48,341 nt of DNA from an uncultured Eubacteriales bacterium (GTDB taxonomy: Bacteria; Bacillota; Clostridia; Peptostreptococcales; Anaerovoracaceae), in the NCBI GenBank assembly GCA_902795135.1, contig CADBJW010000012.1:1-48341 (forward strand), written 5' to 3'. Positions 25,817-30,069 of the stretch are shown here, piece by piece; position 1 is the stretch's first letter, and every line of letters starts with the position of its first letter. Below the pieces are notes generated by a model. It did no database searches. It was not told the DNA's origin and saw nothing but the letters and a program-made list of their open reading frames with translations. Both the position numbers and the translations under genes were made by a program.

Positions 25817-26752
25817 CTATTCGTGCACGATCAATTCCAATACGTCCGGTCTGGCATAATGGCCGACGGCATCGTGTTCCATCTTGCAGGATGCCGGAAG
25901 CTGCATGTCCAGATCTGCATAGATGATGGTTTCTTCATCCCAAACCGGGTCCGTCAGATAATGTCCGAACGGATCTATGATACAGCTTCCTCCCCGGCAA
26001 ATCATGTCCGGCAGCTTTTGAAGATCGGATTTCGTTTCCAGATCCGTCGGATAAGAAGACTTCCTGACAATCATGTCGCTGTTGATGAAGTAGCATTTCC
26101 CTTCGATGGCGATATGCTGAATCGTTGCCTGCCACTCCGGATTATCGTTGGTATTTGGAGAAATGTATATGGTAATGCCCTTCTGATACAGAGCGACCCG
26201 CGCAAGGGGCATGTAACTCTCCCAACAAATCAGGCTTCCCATAGGCCCCCATGGCGTGTCGACAACCGGGAAAAAGTCCCGGTCCGCATCGCCCCAGACA
26301 AGGCGTTCCGAGCCGGTCGGTTTCAGCTTTCTGTGGACGCTGTAGGTTCCTTCCGGCGTAAAGATCGCATTACTGTTATACAACGTCCCTTTTACTGCAT
26401 CCCGCTCCGAAAACCCAATGCTGACATAGGCCTTTGCGGCTTTTGCAGCTTCGCAAAGGGCATCAAATTCGTCTCCGCCGGCCACGATCGACGCGTCATA
26501 ATACCGCTTCCAATCGCGCCTTCCCGGCTCGCTTCGTTTGCCCATGCTGAAACCAAAATTCATCCCGATGGGATACCCGGGAATAAACAGCTCCGGAAAG
26601 ACAATCAGCTCGACCTTCCCGGGACCAGCCGGATCCTTATCTACTGCTTGCTGAATCTGTTCCAGTGCCTTTTGCAAGCAAGCGTCCTTATCGAATAAAA
26701 CAGGTTCCGCCTGCACCAAAGCGATGCGGCAGGTGTCTTTTAAGTCCTTCAT
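25817..26752 (-). CDS. Nitrilase (carbon-nitrogen hydrolase)
   Basis: A 311-residue enzyme of nitrilase branch 1. The catalytic triad is Glu54 (VFPELFIPGYP), Lys142 (HRKLKPTGSERLVWGDAD) and Cys176 (GSLICWESYMPLAR). The RKLKPT and CWE(N/S)Y contexts are those of true nitrilases, which turn nitriles into carboxylates and ammonia, rather than of amidases. The chosen ATG follows GGAGGAGG by five bases; an ATG five codons earlier overlaps that site. It is last in a leftward operon with an Rrf2 regulator and a C-S lyase, so a link to sulfur or cyano-amino-acid metabolism (for example beta-cyanoalanine) is possible but unproven. Confidence 0.88.
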   Translation of the reverse strand: MKDLKDTCRIALVQAEPVLFDKDACLQKALEQIQQAVDKDPAGPGKVELIVFPELFIPGYPIGMNFGFSMGKRSEPGRRDWKRYYDASIVAGGDEFDALCEAAKAAKAYVSIGFSERDAVKGTLYNSNAIFTPEGTYSVHRKLKPTGSERLVWGDADRDFFPVVDTPWGPMGSLICWESYMPLARVALYQKGITIYISPNTNDNPEWQATIQHIAIEGKCYFINSDMIVRKSSYPTDLETKSDLQKLPDMICRGGSCIIDPFGHYLTDPVWDEETIIYADLDMQLPASCKMEHDAVGHYARPDVLELIVHE

Positions 26753-26800
26753 CGCGACCTCCTCCATTCATTCGTCGTCGAAACCTCAATCTACAAAACC

Positions 26801-28015
26801 TCAATCTACAAAGGCGTACTTCTCCAATCGGTCAAAGGCCTCTTTGACCCTTGTCAGTGGCAGCGCCAGATTCATGCGAATGGAATCCGGCCGGTTGAAC
26901 TGTCTTCCATCCTGCCACAAAACCCCGACTTCCACACCTGCAAGCAAAAGCTCATCGATGGTTTTATGATGCTCCCTGAGCCACTCCCCGCAGTCCAGCA
27001 GGAGCATGTACGTCCCCTGCGGTTTTGAAACATCCACGCCCTTAAAATGATTCCAGATAAAATCACATGCGTAATCCACATTTCCAGTGAGCACACCTCG
27101 AAGTTCATCAACCCATTCCATGCCCTCTTGCTTGTATGCTCCAATGAGTGCATGCATGGACAAAACATTCATAGAATTATAGGCGGGAAGTGCAGACTGA
27201 CGTTTGATTCTCGCCCGGAGATAATCGTTGTATATAATATGATAGCTGCCAATCAGGCCTGCCAGGTTAAAGGTCTTTGACGGCGCATAAAAAGCGACGG
27301 TTCTGTTTCTGGCATCCTCGGATACGGACTGCAGCGGAATATGGGTGCTCCCTTCCAGCGTCAGATCGGACCAAATTTCGTCCGAGATCACAAACACATC
27401 GTTTCGCTTAAATATTTCAAAGGCCTGTTCCAGTTCTTCCCGCTCCCATACGCGTCCGGTCGGGTTGTGCGGGGAGCAGAATATCATCGTGTGGATCTTG
27501 TATTTCTTGATTTTTCGCTCCATATCCTCATAATCCATTCTCCAGATCCCGTCCTGATCTTTCACAAGCTCGCTGCCGATCAGATGATATCCCGCTTCTC
27601 CGACTTCCTCGAGAAAGCCCACATAGGTGGGAGCATGGACGAGTACATGATCTCCGGCCGAGCAGAGAACGGCCAGTGCACTGAGTACGCCTCCAAGCAC
27701 GCCGTTCTGATATCCGATGTGCCTTGGTTCAAGACCCTGCACGTTGTTCCTCGTCTTTTGCCAGCGAATGATGCTGCTGTAGTACTCTTTTCTCGGAGAA
27801 AAATATCCAAACGCCGGGTGCTTCGCCCGCTGGATCACCGCCTCGCAAATGGTCGGTGCCGTCGGAAAATTCATGTCCGCTACCCACATAGGAATCAAAT
27901 CAAACCCATCTTTGATTTCCCCTTGTGGCGCGATTCCGTAAGGATCTTCCCAAGGCGCGACCGCAATGGCGTCCATCCCGGTTCTATCTAATATACTTGT
28001 AAAATCGTGTTTCAT
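26801..28015 (-). CDS. patB: PatB/MalY-type PLP-dependent C-S lyase (cystathionine beta-lyase)
   Basis: A 404-residue fold-type I aminotransferase of the MalY/PatB group. The PLP lysine is Lys247 in YAPSKTFNLAGL. PMWVADMNF, HPAFGYFSPRKEYY, CSPHNPTGRVW and VISDEIWSDL are characteristic. Members cleave cystathionine or cysteine, releasing homocysteine or sulfide, ammonia and pyruvate. Two ATGs are adjacent (28018 and 28015); the second has better spacing from GAGGAGG. It lies between the Rrf2 regulator (10-nt gap) and the nitrilase, opposite cysteine and homocysteine synthesis genes, which fits a role in sulfur amino-acid turnover. Confidence 0.9.
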   Translation of the reverse strand: MKHDFTSILDRTGMDAIAVAPWEDPYGIAPQGEIKDGFDLIPMWVADMNFPTAPTICEAVIQRAKHPAFGYFSPRKEYYSSIIRWQKTRNNVQGLEPRHIGYQNGVLGGVLSALAVLCSAGDHVLVHAPTYVGFLEEVGEAGYHLIGSELVKDQDGIWRMDYEDMERKIKKYKIHTMIFCSPHNPTGRVWEREELEQAFEIFKRNDVFVISDEIWSDLTLEGSTHIPLQSVSEDARNRTVAFYAPSKTFNLAGLIGSYHIIYNDYLRARIKRQSALPAYNSMNVLSMHALIGAYKQEGMEWVDELRGVLTGNVDYACDFIWNHFKGVDVSKPQGTYMLLLDCGEWLREHHKTIDELLLAGVEVGVLWQDGRQFNRPDSIRMNLALPLTRVKEAFDRLEKYAFVD

Positions 28016-28028
28016 CATTGCCTCCTCA

Positions 28029-28424: not shown

Positions 28425-28447
28425 GTCAGACCTCCAATGGTTTTATT

Positions 28448-28481
28448 ACCTATTCTACTACCAGATTAAAGGGTGAATCAA
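28448..28481 (-). promoter_or_regulatory. Promoter of the rrf2 operon with an operator-like sequence on its -10
   Basis: On the minus strand TTGATT (28476-28481) and TAGAAT (28452-28457) are 18 nt apart. The -10 lies inside GGTAGTAGAATAGGT (28448-28462), which shares AATAGGTAAT with the inverted repeat on the opposing promoter. This suggests autoregulation. Confidence 0.55.
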
Positions 28482-28499
28482 TGAAAAAAAATATAAATT

Positions 28500-28518
28500 A
28501 CCTATTGACATAGTAGGT
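28500..28518. promoter_or_regulatory. Operator-like inverted repeat over the -35 of the sulfhydrylase promoter
   Basis: ACCTATTGACATAGTAGGT has five-base arms ACCTA / TAGGT with partial symmetry inside, and it covers the -35 hexamer TTGACA. The position fits a repressor, most simply the divergently encoded Rrf2 protein. That assignment is inference. Confidence 0.6.
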
Positions 28519-28533
28519 TAATAGTGTTAATAT
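28505..28533 (+). promoter_or_regulatory. Promoter of the sulfhydrylase-cysK operon
   Basis: Consensus TTGACA (28505-28510), a 17-nt spacer and TAATAT (28528-28533). Transcription should start near 28540, about 245 nt before the first enzyme gene, leaving a long structured leader. Confidence 0.8.
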
Positions 28534-28580
28534 AGCCTCATCCAAAAGGAAAACATTCTGAACGAAAGGAGGCGCAAGCA

Positions 28581-28691
28581 ATGAAAATCATCGAAACCAA
28601 GAACATGATGTACTGGATGTGTTGTCTGATGCCGGACTCCCGGGCATGTAGTATGATGGGAGACGCGCAGCAGCCTTTGCGTGCGTCTTAA
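28581..28691 (+). CDS. Met/Cys/Trp-rich leader peptide (36 codons)
   Basis: This short frame is preceded by AAGGAGG at 28566-28572, an 8-nt spacing and one of the strongest ribosome sites in the window. Codons 9-17 read Met-Met-Tyr-Trp-Met-Cys-Cys-Leu-Met; in all there are seven Met, three Cys and one Trp in 36 residues. The tandem Cys codons (14-15, 28620-28625) lie about 11 nt before a sequence that forms an antiterminator, the spacing expected if a stalled ribosome leaves that sequence just exposed. It is probably a regulatory leader for O-acetylhomoserine sulfhydrylase and cysK, sensing charged tRNA-Cys (or tRNA-Met). The peptide need not have its own function. Confidence 0.78.
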   Translation: MKIIETKNMMYWMCCLMPDSRACSMMGDAQQPLRAS

Positions 28692-28757
28692 AAAGGGTTT
28701 ACAAAATAAATCATTTCCATCATATTGCCCGGGAGTATAACCTCAGGCAATTTTTTT
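28636..28757 (+). promoter_or_regulatory. Attenuator: alternative antiterminator and intrinsic terminator
   Basis: ACTCCCGGGCA (28636-28646, inside the leader ORF) is the exact 11-nt complement of TGCCCGGGAGT (28726-28736). The latter is also the 5' half of a terminator: ATTGCC (28724-28729) pairs with GGCAAT (28746-28751), with an inner GAG / CTC, followed by TTTTTT (28752-28757). The two pairings exclude each other. A third option, CTCCC (28637-28641) with GGGAG (28658-28662), would sequester the antiterminator strand. An independent hairpin AGACGC / GCGTCT (28661-28666 with 28683-28688) lies between. The terminator ends 28 nt before the enzyme gene start. Confidence 0.8.
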
Positions 28758-28785
28758 ATGCAAAGGCAGAAAAGGAATGGATAAA

Positions 28786-30069
28786 ATGAGCGATTACAGA
28801 TTTGAAACATTACAACTTCATGTAGGACAGGAACAGGCCGATCCGGCAACAGACGCGAGAGCCGTTCCAATCTATGCGACGACCGCATACGTATTTCATA
28901 ACGCACAGCATGCCGCAGACCGGTTTGGTTTAGCTGATCCGGGCAACATTTACGGCAGACTCACCAACTCAACCCAGGACGTGCTGGAACAGCGTGTGGC
29001 AGCTCTGGAAGGCGGCAGTGCTGCTTTGGCACTGGCTTCCGGTGCGGCAGCGATCACTTACGCGATACAGGCACTGGCCGCAAACGGCGGCCACATCGTT
29101 GCCCAAAAGACCATTTATGGAGGAACCTTCAATTTGCTGGAACACACCCTCCCGCAGTACGGCATCCAAACCAGCTTCGTAGATGCGCACAATCTGGCGG
29201 AAGTGGAAGATGCTATACAGGATAACACCCGTGCCATTTTCTTAGAGACCCTCGGCAATCCAAACAGCGACATTCCGGACATTGACGCAATCGCAGAGAT
29301 TGCTCACAAGCATGGTCTGCCGCTGGTCATCGACAACACCTTTGGAACGCCGTATTTGATCCGGCCAATCGACCACGGCGCGGACATTGTCATCCACTCG
29401 GCCACGAAATTCCTGGGCGGGCATGGAACGACCCTTGGCGGAATCATCGTAGAATCCGGCAAATTCAACTGGAAGGCCAGTGGCAAATTCGGCAACATTG
29501 CCGATCCAAACCCGAGCTATCACGGCGTATCTTTTTACGACGCCGTCGGCCCTGCGGCCTTTGTAACATACATCCGTGCCATTCTTCTCCGGGATACGGG
29601 CGCGGTCCTGTCACCGTTCAGCGCGTTCCTGCTGCTGCAGGGAATTGAGACACTGTCCCTCCGGTTGGAACGTCATGCGGAAAACACGAAAAAAATCATC
29701 GATTATCTGACGGCGCACCCGCAGGTTGTGAAAGTAAACCACCCTTCCCTGCCGGATCATCCGGACCACGCGCTTTATGAGAAGTACTTCCCGAATGGCG
29801 GTGGCTCGATCTTCACCTTTGAAATCAAAGGCGGCAAAGAAGAAGCATGGAAGTTCATCGATGGACTGGAACTCTTCTCCCTGCTGGCAAACGTGGCGGA
29901 CGTAAAGAGTCTCGTCATCCACCCTGCAACGACAACCCATTCCCAGCTTACGGAGGAAGAACTTGCCGATCAGGGCATTTATCCGGGAACGATTCGACTG
30001 TCCATCGGAACGGAACACATTGACGACATTATCGCAGATCTTGAAAAAGGATTTGCGGCAGCTAAATAG
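28786..30069 (+). CDS. metY: O-acetylhomoserine sulfhydrylase
   Basis: A 427-residue PLP enzyme of the Cys/Met metabolism family that joins O-acetylhomoserine and sulfide to homocysteine. The family signatures are RLTNSTQDVLEQRVAALEGG, NPNSDIPDI, and the PLP Lys208 in HSATKFLGGHGTTLGG. Length near 430 and the internal insertion distinguish this group from the shorter cystathionine gamma-synthases. The start ATG at 28786 has AGGA nine bases upstream; an ATG at 28777 abuts that site. cysK follows by 24 nt. Expression is probably controlled by the upstream operator and attenuator. Confidence 0.93.
   Translation: MSDYRFETLQLHVGQEQADPATDARAVPIYATTAYVFHNAQHAADRFGLADPGNIYGRLTNSTQDVLEQRVAALEGGSAALALASGAAAITYAIQALAANGGHIVAQKTIYGGTFNLLEHTLPQYGIQTSFVDAHNLAEVEDAIQDNTRAIFLETLGNPNSDIPDIDAIAEIAHKHGLPLVIDNTFGTPYLIRPIDHGADIVIHSATKFLGGHGTTLGGIIVESGKFNWKASGKFGNIADPNPSYHGVSFYDAVGPAAFVTYIRAILLRDTGAVLSPFSAFLLLQGIETLSLRLERHAENTKKIIDYLTAHPQVVKVNHPSLPDHPDHALYEKYFPNGGGSIFTFEIKGGKEEAWKFIDGLELFSLLANVADVKSLVIHPATTTHSQLTEEELADQGIYPGTIRLSIGTEHIDDIIADLEKGFAAAK

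Follow-up and report, generated by a model that had tools for sequence, protein, structure and literature searches.

A conserved leader element, very probably a cysteine attenuator, upstream of metY-cysK and other sulfur genes in Clostridia

Attenuators of the enteric trp/his type consist of a leader peptide with regulatory codons and of mutually exclusive antiterminator and terminator structures, and a ribosome at the leader stop codon masks the antiterminator strand. In Bacillota, cysteine (Cys) control is commonly attributed to CymR, T-boxes and S-boxes. Here we analyse a leader upstream of metY and cysK in a stretch of 48,341 nucleotides (nt) from an uncultured Eubacteriales bacterium of the Anaerovoracaceae (“the window”; assembly GCA_902795135.1, contig CADBJW010000012.1, positions 1 to 48,341), together with its relatives. 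The system closest in kind is the uORFC-8-2 motif upstream of cysS in Rhodobacterales, which, in the available text of PMC8632094, shares with this leader the tandem Cys codons (usually 14 and 15), a short leader, a 3′ terminator and a proposed attenuation by tRNA-Cys. As here, Cys-rich leaders precede cys operons in Mycobacterium and other Actinobacteria (available part of PMC1262725), and the leader of M. smegmatis is cited as a case of translation attenuation in the accessible portion of PMC13236596. Ribosome-mediated attenuation has been described for branched-chain amino acids in Staphylococcus aureus and Listeria (PMC6123439) and proposed for the His leaders of bacilli (PMC2965389), as stated in the available sections of both papers. 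No cysteine attenuator of Lachnospiraceae or Clostridia was found in the literature searched, and priority is not proven because that search covered few subscription papers or preprints. An earlier sequence-only reading of the window had called such a switch unusual in Firmicutes; this stands for cysteine as far as found, but not for ribosome-mediated attenuation in general, given the Gram-positive cases just named.

From sequence comparisons, we conclude that the element is very probably a ribosome-mediated transcription attenuator sensing charged tRNA-Cys. It is one member of a conserved family of such probable cysteine attenuators, whose genes form a sulfur regulon, so that the finding is larger than first stated. 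The open reading frame (ORF), Cys codons at a fixed spacing, both alternative structures and sulfur genes downstream are established by comparison of related sequences. The features of the leader in the window are as follows.

28505..28533, + strand: sigma-70-type promoter, TTGACA-17-TAATAT, with 10 of 12 consensus positions
28565..28572, + strand: ribosome-binding site of the leader, AAAGGAGG, read from the sequence
28581..28691, + strand: leader ORF of 36 codons, MKIIETKNMMYWMCCLMPDSRACSMMGDAQQPLRAS, with the stop codon TAA at 28689-28691 and homologous leaders in relatives
28620..28625, + strand: putative sensor Cys codons 14-15 (TGT TGT), at a position where Cys recurs in related leaders
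28626..28673, + strand: possible protector hairpin P1, upper and lower parts, predicted in transcripts ending before strand B
28636..28646, + strand: strand A, ACTCCCGGGCA, 5′ strand of the antiterminator, from sequence, covariation and folding
28652..28659, + strand: strand A′, TATGATGG, 5′ strand of the antiterminator, from pairing in the window and covariation
28662..28687, + strand: inner hairpin P2, GACGC (28662-28666) with GCGTC (28683-28687), inside the antiterminator
28717..28724, + strand: strand B′, CCATCATA, 3′ strand of the antiterminator, from pairing in the window and covariation
28726..28736, + strand: strand B, TGCCCGGGAGT, shared by the antiterminator (as 3′ strand) and the terminator (as 5′ arm)
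28725..28757, + strand: intrinsic terminator with arms TTGCC...GGCAA, then seven T (28751-28757); the terminator of relatives covaries

Strand A is the exact 11-nt complement of strand B, and a leader-terminator match of this length was reached by only 1 of 2000 codon-shuffled leaders. The predicted folding of the leader surpasses that of all 200 dinucleotide shuffles (z −4.17). Cys is encoded by codons 14, 15 and 23 of the ORF. P1 combines the pairing of CTGATGC (28626-28632) with GCAGCAG (28667-28673) and that of CTCCC (28637-28641) with GGGAG (28658-28662). The sequence-only reading had already pointed out the promoter, the 36-codon ORF with its good ribosome-binding site and tandem Cys codons, the 11-nt pairing and, as a third pairing, CTCCC with GGGAG, and all of these were confirmed. 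The terminator that it placed at 28724-28757 is also present, though weak and interrupted (duplex −9.8 kcal/mol), and a simple terminator scan gave no entry for it. The second antiterminator helix, A′ with B′, and P2 had been overlooked.

To find relatives, upstream regions of metY from 110 loci (30 from a genus search and 80 named loci) were screened for a Cys located 0 to 8 residues ahead of S-R-A. At least 42 of the 110 carry such a leader upstream of metY, and two additional members, L039 and L094 (the latter with SQT instead of SRA), were recognised later. All 42 motif-found leaders have one common spacing despite the flexible motif, and the 38 distinct ones align without gaps from the Cys codons, which they contain by selection because the motif includes Cys, through strand A. 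Their order is ATGTGTTGT-like codons, CGA or CTG, ATG, five nucleotides and CTCCCGGGCA, followed on the 3′ side by an ATGGC-like A′, a GCCAT-like B′, TTGCCCGGGAG, a CCCGGGC-like terminator arm and a T run. Many leaders end with Arg-Cys-stop, i.e. CGATGTTGA. L051 and L108 (records labelled Treponema) have another leader peptide in common upstream of metY, EKLVRENFRNGRM, after which come Cys codons, and L305 resembles a hybrid of this type and the SRA type.

Covariance model R1 was built from 30 of the 38 leaders; the six leaders of the window's subgroup and two atypical ones, L018 and L067, were omitted, while three others of the window's genus (L015, L017 and L023) were retained. In a search of the whole genome, R1 finds the window at 28614-28752 with an E value of 2.1e-11. 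A second model, R2, is blind to the sensor and starts 3′ of the sensor codons. The tallies below refer to 124 leaders, after omission of 6 of the 130 distinct leaders with a misplaced core, and codons are numbered relative to the Ser of SRA (codon 0).

In these leaders, strand A has a downstream partner with 10 pairs in 85 and with 9 pairs in 28 cases (113 of 124 together), and a partner of at least 9 pairs occurred in 139 of 2480 shuffle controls. Covariation was first analysed in a MAFFT alignment of 30 leaders, which omits the two atypical leaders and the window's subgroup, with its other pairing register. For the antiterminator plus inner hairpin, 8 of 21 pairs were changed on both sides (reached by 5 of 500 shuffles), with 15 cells changed on both sides (0 of 500 shuffles); 92% of the cells were paired, compared to about 50% at most when the partner was slid. 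The second set, A3, consists of 69 of the 124 leaders chosen by ourselves; it omits 6 leaders of the window's own subgroup, 17 of the cysK group of one genus and 32 more, whose cores diverge or whose 3′ ends are unclear, or which were simply not included. Many of the 69 had been found by R1, which contains the structure, and the 30 had been picked by the peptide motif. In A3, 15 of 20 pairs of the antiterminator plus P2 were changed on both sides, with 64 such cells versus 18.0 (standard deviation 3.6) in shuffles, none of 500 of which reached this value; for the counterpart of P2 in relatives this was true of all 6 pairs. The terminator had 4 of 8 such pairs (19 of 500 shuffles) and 19 such cells versus 8.6 (0 of 500). 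Typical compensating changes are TCCCAGGCA with TGCCTGGGA, GGACA with TGTCC, and GGGCT with AGCCC. The mutually exclusive antiterminator and terminator are both backed by covariation, the latter not clearly so on the smaller set. The alignment of leaders that the sequence-only reading had recommended revealed conserved Cys codons as well as covarying antiterminator and terminator pairs.

A conserved RNA core of 132-151 model positions with nearly invariant segments could also be that of a ligand-binding riboswitch, in which the ORF would be incidental. We regard this as extremely improbable. Rfam yielded no T-box, SAM or other riboswitch match in the window at gathering scores, no T-box or riboswitch match but only a tRNA in 10 related loci at E values up to 1, and a few weak miRNA or sRNA matches, below cut-offs and outside the leaders, in 13 related loci at E values up to 0.5; 18 metY loci, 17 of them without a recognised SRA-type leader and with L094, L051 and L108 among the 18, gave nothing. 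The most conserved segments are the strands of the alternative pairing, the Cys codons recur in one frame beside a pairing strand, and 119 of the 124 leaders have a start codon after a loosely defined ribosome-binding site.

The peptide core is remarkably similar between families, and a nascent peptide CCRMxxSRAxxMAGA might make the ribosome stall as a response to a sulfur metabolite, with the Cys codons as part of the arrest peptide. In addition, the CGA-ATG that directly follows the Cys codons hardly varies, for which the covarying helices do not account. The conservation concerns nucleotides rather than residues, however, and one synonymous codon is nearly always used: Arg at −4 is coded by CGA in 93 of 94 cases, and among the 124 leaders TCC is used as codon 0 in 111 and CGG as codon +1 in 107. 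In many leaders, the final base of strand A (part of codon +2) varies along with strand B. In L351, which precedes metY, a stop codon follows directly after CCRMR and before SRA, and the pairing of TCCCGGACA with TGTCCGGGA is kept. L362 and L363 have divergent strands A (ACAAGGGCTG and CGGGCTG, respectively) with strands B that still match. Residue −4 is Leu in 26 of the 124 leaders, including that in the window, and the N-terminal part is variable. NCBIfam and Pfam searches with four leader peptides gave nothing. Peptide arrest is therefore very unlikely, and the core is best regarded as a side effect of RNA pairing because of the codon use, the joint changes of strands A and B, and L351. The near-constant SRA peptide illustrates that RNA pairing can imitate protein conservation.

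Codon −5 is Cys in 105 of the 124 leaders; 120 have Cys at −6 or −5, and 123 have it at −7 to −5, the last value being inflated since the first 38 were found with a motif containing Cys and later ones with R1, which includes Cys codons and structure. Further upstream of the sensor, Cys accounts for only 38 of 993 codons of the model-found leaders. Because R1 includes the sensor columns, two sensor-blind tests were made. The pattern [AC]GAATG-N5-CTCCCGGG, devoid of Cys codons and strand B, matched in 15 of 393 genomes of the order; Cys codons were present in 6 of 6 matches with strand B and in 0 of 9 without. Outside the family, this pattern matched only without strand B, and a reversed control pattern had two matches. 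R2 gave 15 matches besides the window in 331 genomes of the class. One of these (L358) is training row L308, and the remaining matches, from 10 genomes and none of them training rows, had Cys at −7 to −5 in 14 of 14 cases. In the family of G534, R2 found essentially the same places as R1, plus antisense matches and the weak extras L346 and L347; the latter precedes another gene and is probably a chance match.

The exception among the 124 leaders is L165 (G258; leader at about 640-740), which precedes metF; here Met occupies codons −5 and −7, and Cys is confined to −8. Its sequence could possibly reflect a sensor recoded from Cys to Met. The operon might even answer to both amino acids, if the flanking ATG codons at −7 or −3 contribute: Met occupies codon −3 in 120 of the 124 leaders and codon −7 in 65, and the pathway yields homocysteine. 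Against this, the leaders of most cysK and cystine-type transporter genes also have ATG at −3, and a ribosome held at −3 would be expected to cover strand A, which predicts the OFF state. We consider dual or methionine sensing unlikely. The sequence-only reading had named charged tRNA-Cys or tRNA-Met as the signal; the former agrees with the comparison, the latter would at best be a rare variant, seen in one leader ahead of metF.

In the mechanism that we infer for sensing of charged tRNA-Cys, transcription would start near 28540 and ribosomes would enter the leader at once. If Cys-tRNA is scarce, the ribosome would halt when codon 14 or 15 (Cys) occupies its A site, and its leading edge would end about where strand A begins, so that A and A′ could pair with the emerging B and B′. 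With B taken up in the antiterminator, the terminator could not form, and RNA polymerase would continue into metY-cysK (ON). If Cys-tRNA is plentiful, the ribosome would advance, and strand A would be covered by the same or a following ribosome, or be held in a local hairpin, while B is made; B would then fold with its 3′ arm and transcription would end at about 28757 (OFF).

Constrained folding is consistent with this scheme. Averaged over 120 of the 124 leaders, the predicted probabilities of the A:B helix and the terminator were 0.72 and 0.19 with the ribosome on the Cys codons, compared to 0.00 and 0.74 with strand A covered; the respective values for the window were 0.98 and 0.00 versus 0.00 and 0.64. 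The ON state is well supported by these computations and by the spacing, and the view of the sequence-only reading that a ribosome paused at the Cys codons would leave the antiterminator strand free agrees with the fixed spacing and the modelled folds. Its route to OFF, i.e. masking by a ribosome that moves on, does not follow as written: a ribosome at the stop codon does not mask strand A because the stop lies 43 nt beyond it, and the predicted fold is still the antiterminator. In the window, the terminator was predicted only with a ribosome over strand A. Since the antiterminator wins whether the ribosome is absent or at the stop, OFF would have to be kinetic, either by ribosomes positioned over A when B emerges or by P1. 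In window transcripts ending before B, the upper part of P1 had a probability of 0.65 and the lower part of 0.40. Single folds suggested P1 as an obligate protector, but neither covariation nor the constrained folds of the window supported this role, and P1 is kept as a possible contributor. That P2 pauses the polymerase is our conjecture.

R1 matched in 12 of 49 genomes of the genus, in 54 of 349 genomes of the family and in 47 of 397 genomes of the Lachnospiraceae-type family of Lachnospiraceae bacterium AC2029, where G789 has four matches. All 20 genomes that had been chosen as carriers matched, several with a second convincing copy and G539 with four. R2 matched in 12 of the 331 class genomes, including that of the window, which by their labels belong to six families.

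The next gene was recorded for 58 of the 61 loci of the AC2029-family search, taking the longest ORF of at least 110 amino acids within 500 nt and labelling it by BLAST or a short motif. It was metY in 25 cases; lipoproteins with a YRTLDEI-like motif accounted for 11, cystathionine-type enzymes dependent on pyridoxal phosphate for 6, and MetQ-like, MetN-like and GST-like proteins for 2 each, with ten others once each. In genus g14 of the window's family, the element is often located ahead of cysK, in some genomes in addition to a copy ahead of metY. Ten example genes were searched with NCBIfam. Cut-offs were passed by a PepT-like peptidase (L311), methylenetetrahydrofolate reductase (L165), a MoeB subfamily protein (L315) and a (2S)-3-sulfopropanediol dehydratase (L280, in G787), a glycyl radical enzyme of sulfonate breakdown; the latter arrangement would tie sulfonate use to the need for cysteine. 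The genes with the element upstream include a sulfur-carrier fusion. Among the matches listed, only ones below cut-offs were present for L285 (cystathionine synthase/lyase-like), L310 (LysR protein), L228 (taurine/sulfonate-like ATPase) and L288 (in G740), a lipoprotein that joins cystine-binding-like and MetQ-like parts in one chain; the products next to L287 and L302 had no NCBIfam match. The products at L272 and L277 are similar in length to that at L288 and may be alike.

A possible, albeit tentative, extension is that the element is a portable attenuator cassette, which could build a sulfur regulon without a regulator protein: in several families of Clostridia, one RNA core would have spread to sites ahead of enzymes, including one that degrades sulfonate, and of transporters of the cystine, methionine and sulfonate types. 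Specificity would then reside only in the codons just 5′ of strand A and would hence be recodable, for which the Met codons of L165 could be an example.

Several observations weigh against a cysteine attenuator, in addition to the inflated count of Cys codons and our own selection of A3. The near-invariance of CGAATG (CGA-ATG at −4/−3) is not explained by covarying helices; in the window's group CTG-ATG takes its place (28626-28631), and its only predicted partner is in P1, which does not covary. Eleven of the 124 leaders lack a convincing strand B, with 7-8 of 10 pairs, i.e. chance level. In the 30 leaders, P1 plus terminator had 3 pairs changed on both sides, a value reached by 357 of 500 shuffles, with cells weakly above shuffles (9; 32 of 500), and P1 alone showed no covariation beyond shuffles in the 69 leaders (its degree of pairing was matched by 170 of 500). 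Cys is common after SRA as well (130 of 1153 codons of the model-found leaders), where a stalled ribosome would lack the proposed effect, and the weak sensor-blind match L346, ahead of metY, has no Cys at −7 to −5. As for the mechanism, the window's antiterminator wins at equilibrium without a ribosome and also with a ribosome at the stop, the stop (28689) is 43 nt past strand A in the window and a median of 45 nt past it in the 124 leaders, and a ribosome on Cys15 raises the upper part of P1 from 0.65 to 0.92 in the window transcript ending before B. Where RNA polymerase outruns ribosomes, as discussed in the available part of PMC13323073, a pause would be needed. Lastly, the occurrence is patchy even in the genus (12 of 49 genomes), no element was found at metY genes of 91-92% identity (L008, L010 and L012), and some next genes are not obvious sulfur genes (LysR, SDR, HD, PepT-like, cyclase-like; the labels SDR, HD and cyclase are presumptive and go by the appearance of the sequences).

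The surroundings of the leader in the window include two genes downstream and a divergent regulator gene upstream, with a repeat that could serve as operator.

28777..30069, + strand: metY, O-acetylhomoserine aminocarboxypropyltransferase/sulfhydrylase, above the cut-off of NCBIfam TIGR01326
30088..31026, + strand: cysK, cysteine synthase A, above the cut-off of NCBIfam TIGR01139
28029..28424, − strand: divergent Rrf2-family regulator, above the superfamily cut-off and below those for IscR and CymR
28497..28521, no strand assigned: imperfect inverted repeat ATTACCTATTGACATAGTAGGTTAA over the −35 box, candidate operator of the divergent Rrf2-type regulator

With 95.4 bits versus an NCBIfam cut-off of 195, the regulator was not assigned to CymR. 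The repeat is 72% like a second copy at 28445-28469, and a loose pattern for its right half was found near the leaders of 16 of 37 relatives. Binding of the Rrf2-type regulator at these repeats could be a second layer of control. The divergent gene and the operator-like repeat over the −35 box would also fit control by this repressor only, with the leader terminator merely trimming basal expression. Conserved Cys codons and covarying alternative structures would then need an explanation of their own, and many loci with the element showed no relative of this Rrf2 gene in the adjoining stretch examined, so that exclusive control by the repressor appears highly improbable. Beyond the Rrf2 gene, a PatB-like C-S lyase gene and a nitrilase-like gene (25817-28018, − strand) both match below NCBIfam cut-offs; they perhaps form one sulfur-related cluster.

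If widespread, a cysteine attenuator would give rumen and gut Clostridia an additional, regulator-free layer of control, and it would predict the sulfur regulon of organisms that are hardly open to manipulation. It also raises the question of how ribosomes can time a switch in a phylum whose RNA polymerase may run ahead of them. Compared to enteric attenuators of the trp/his type, the same parts are present, but the stop codon is a median of 45 nt past the antiterminator strand. The Gram-positive leaders for branched-chain amino acids and histidine concern other amino acids, whereas here one RNA core is located ahead of many unrelated genes. The Cys-rich leaders of Actinobacteria belong to another phylum and, according to the available part of PMC1262725, have no conserved hairpin capable of termination. 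The uORFC-8-2 motif, compared by its description in the available text of PMC8632094, occurs in Alphaproteobacteria, precedes cysS only and has its Cys codons inside the first stem. In contrast, the leaders of the window type have their Cys codons just 5′ of the antiterminator strand and precede genes of sulfur assimilation and transport in Clostridia.

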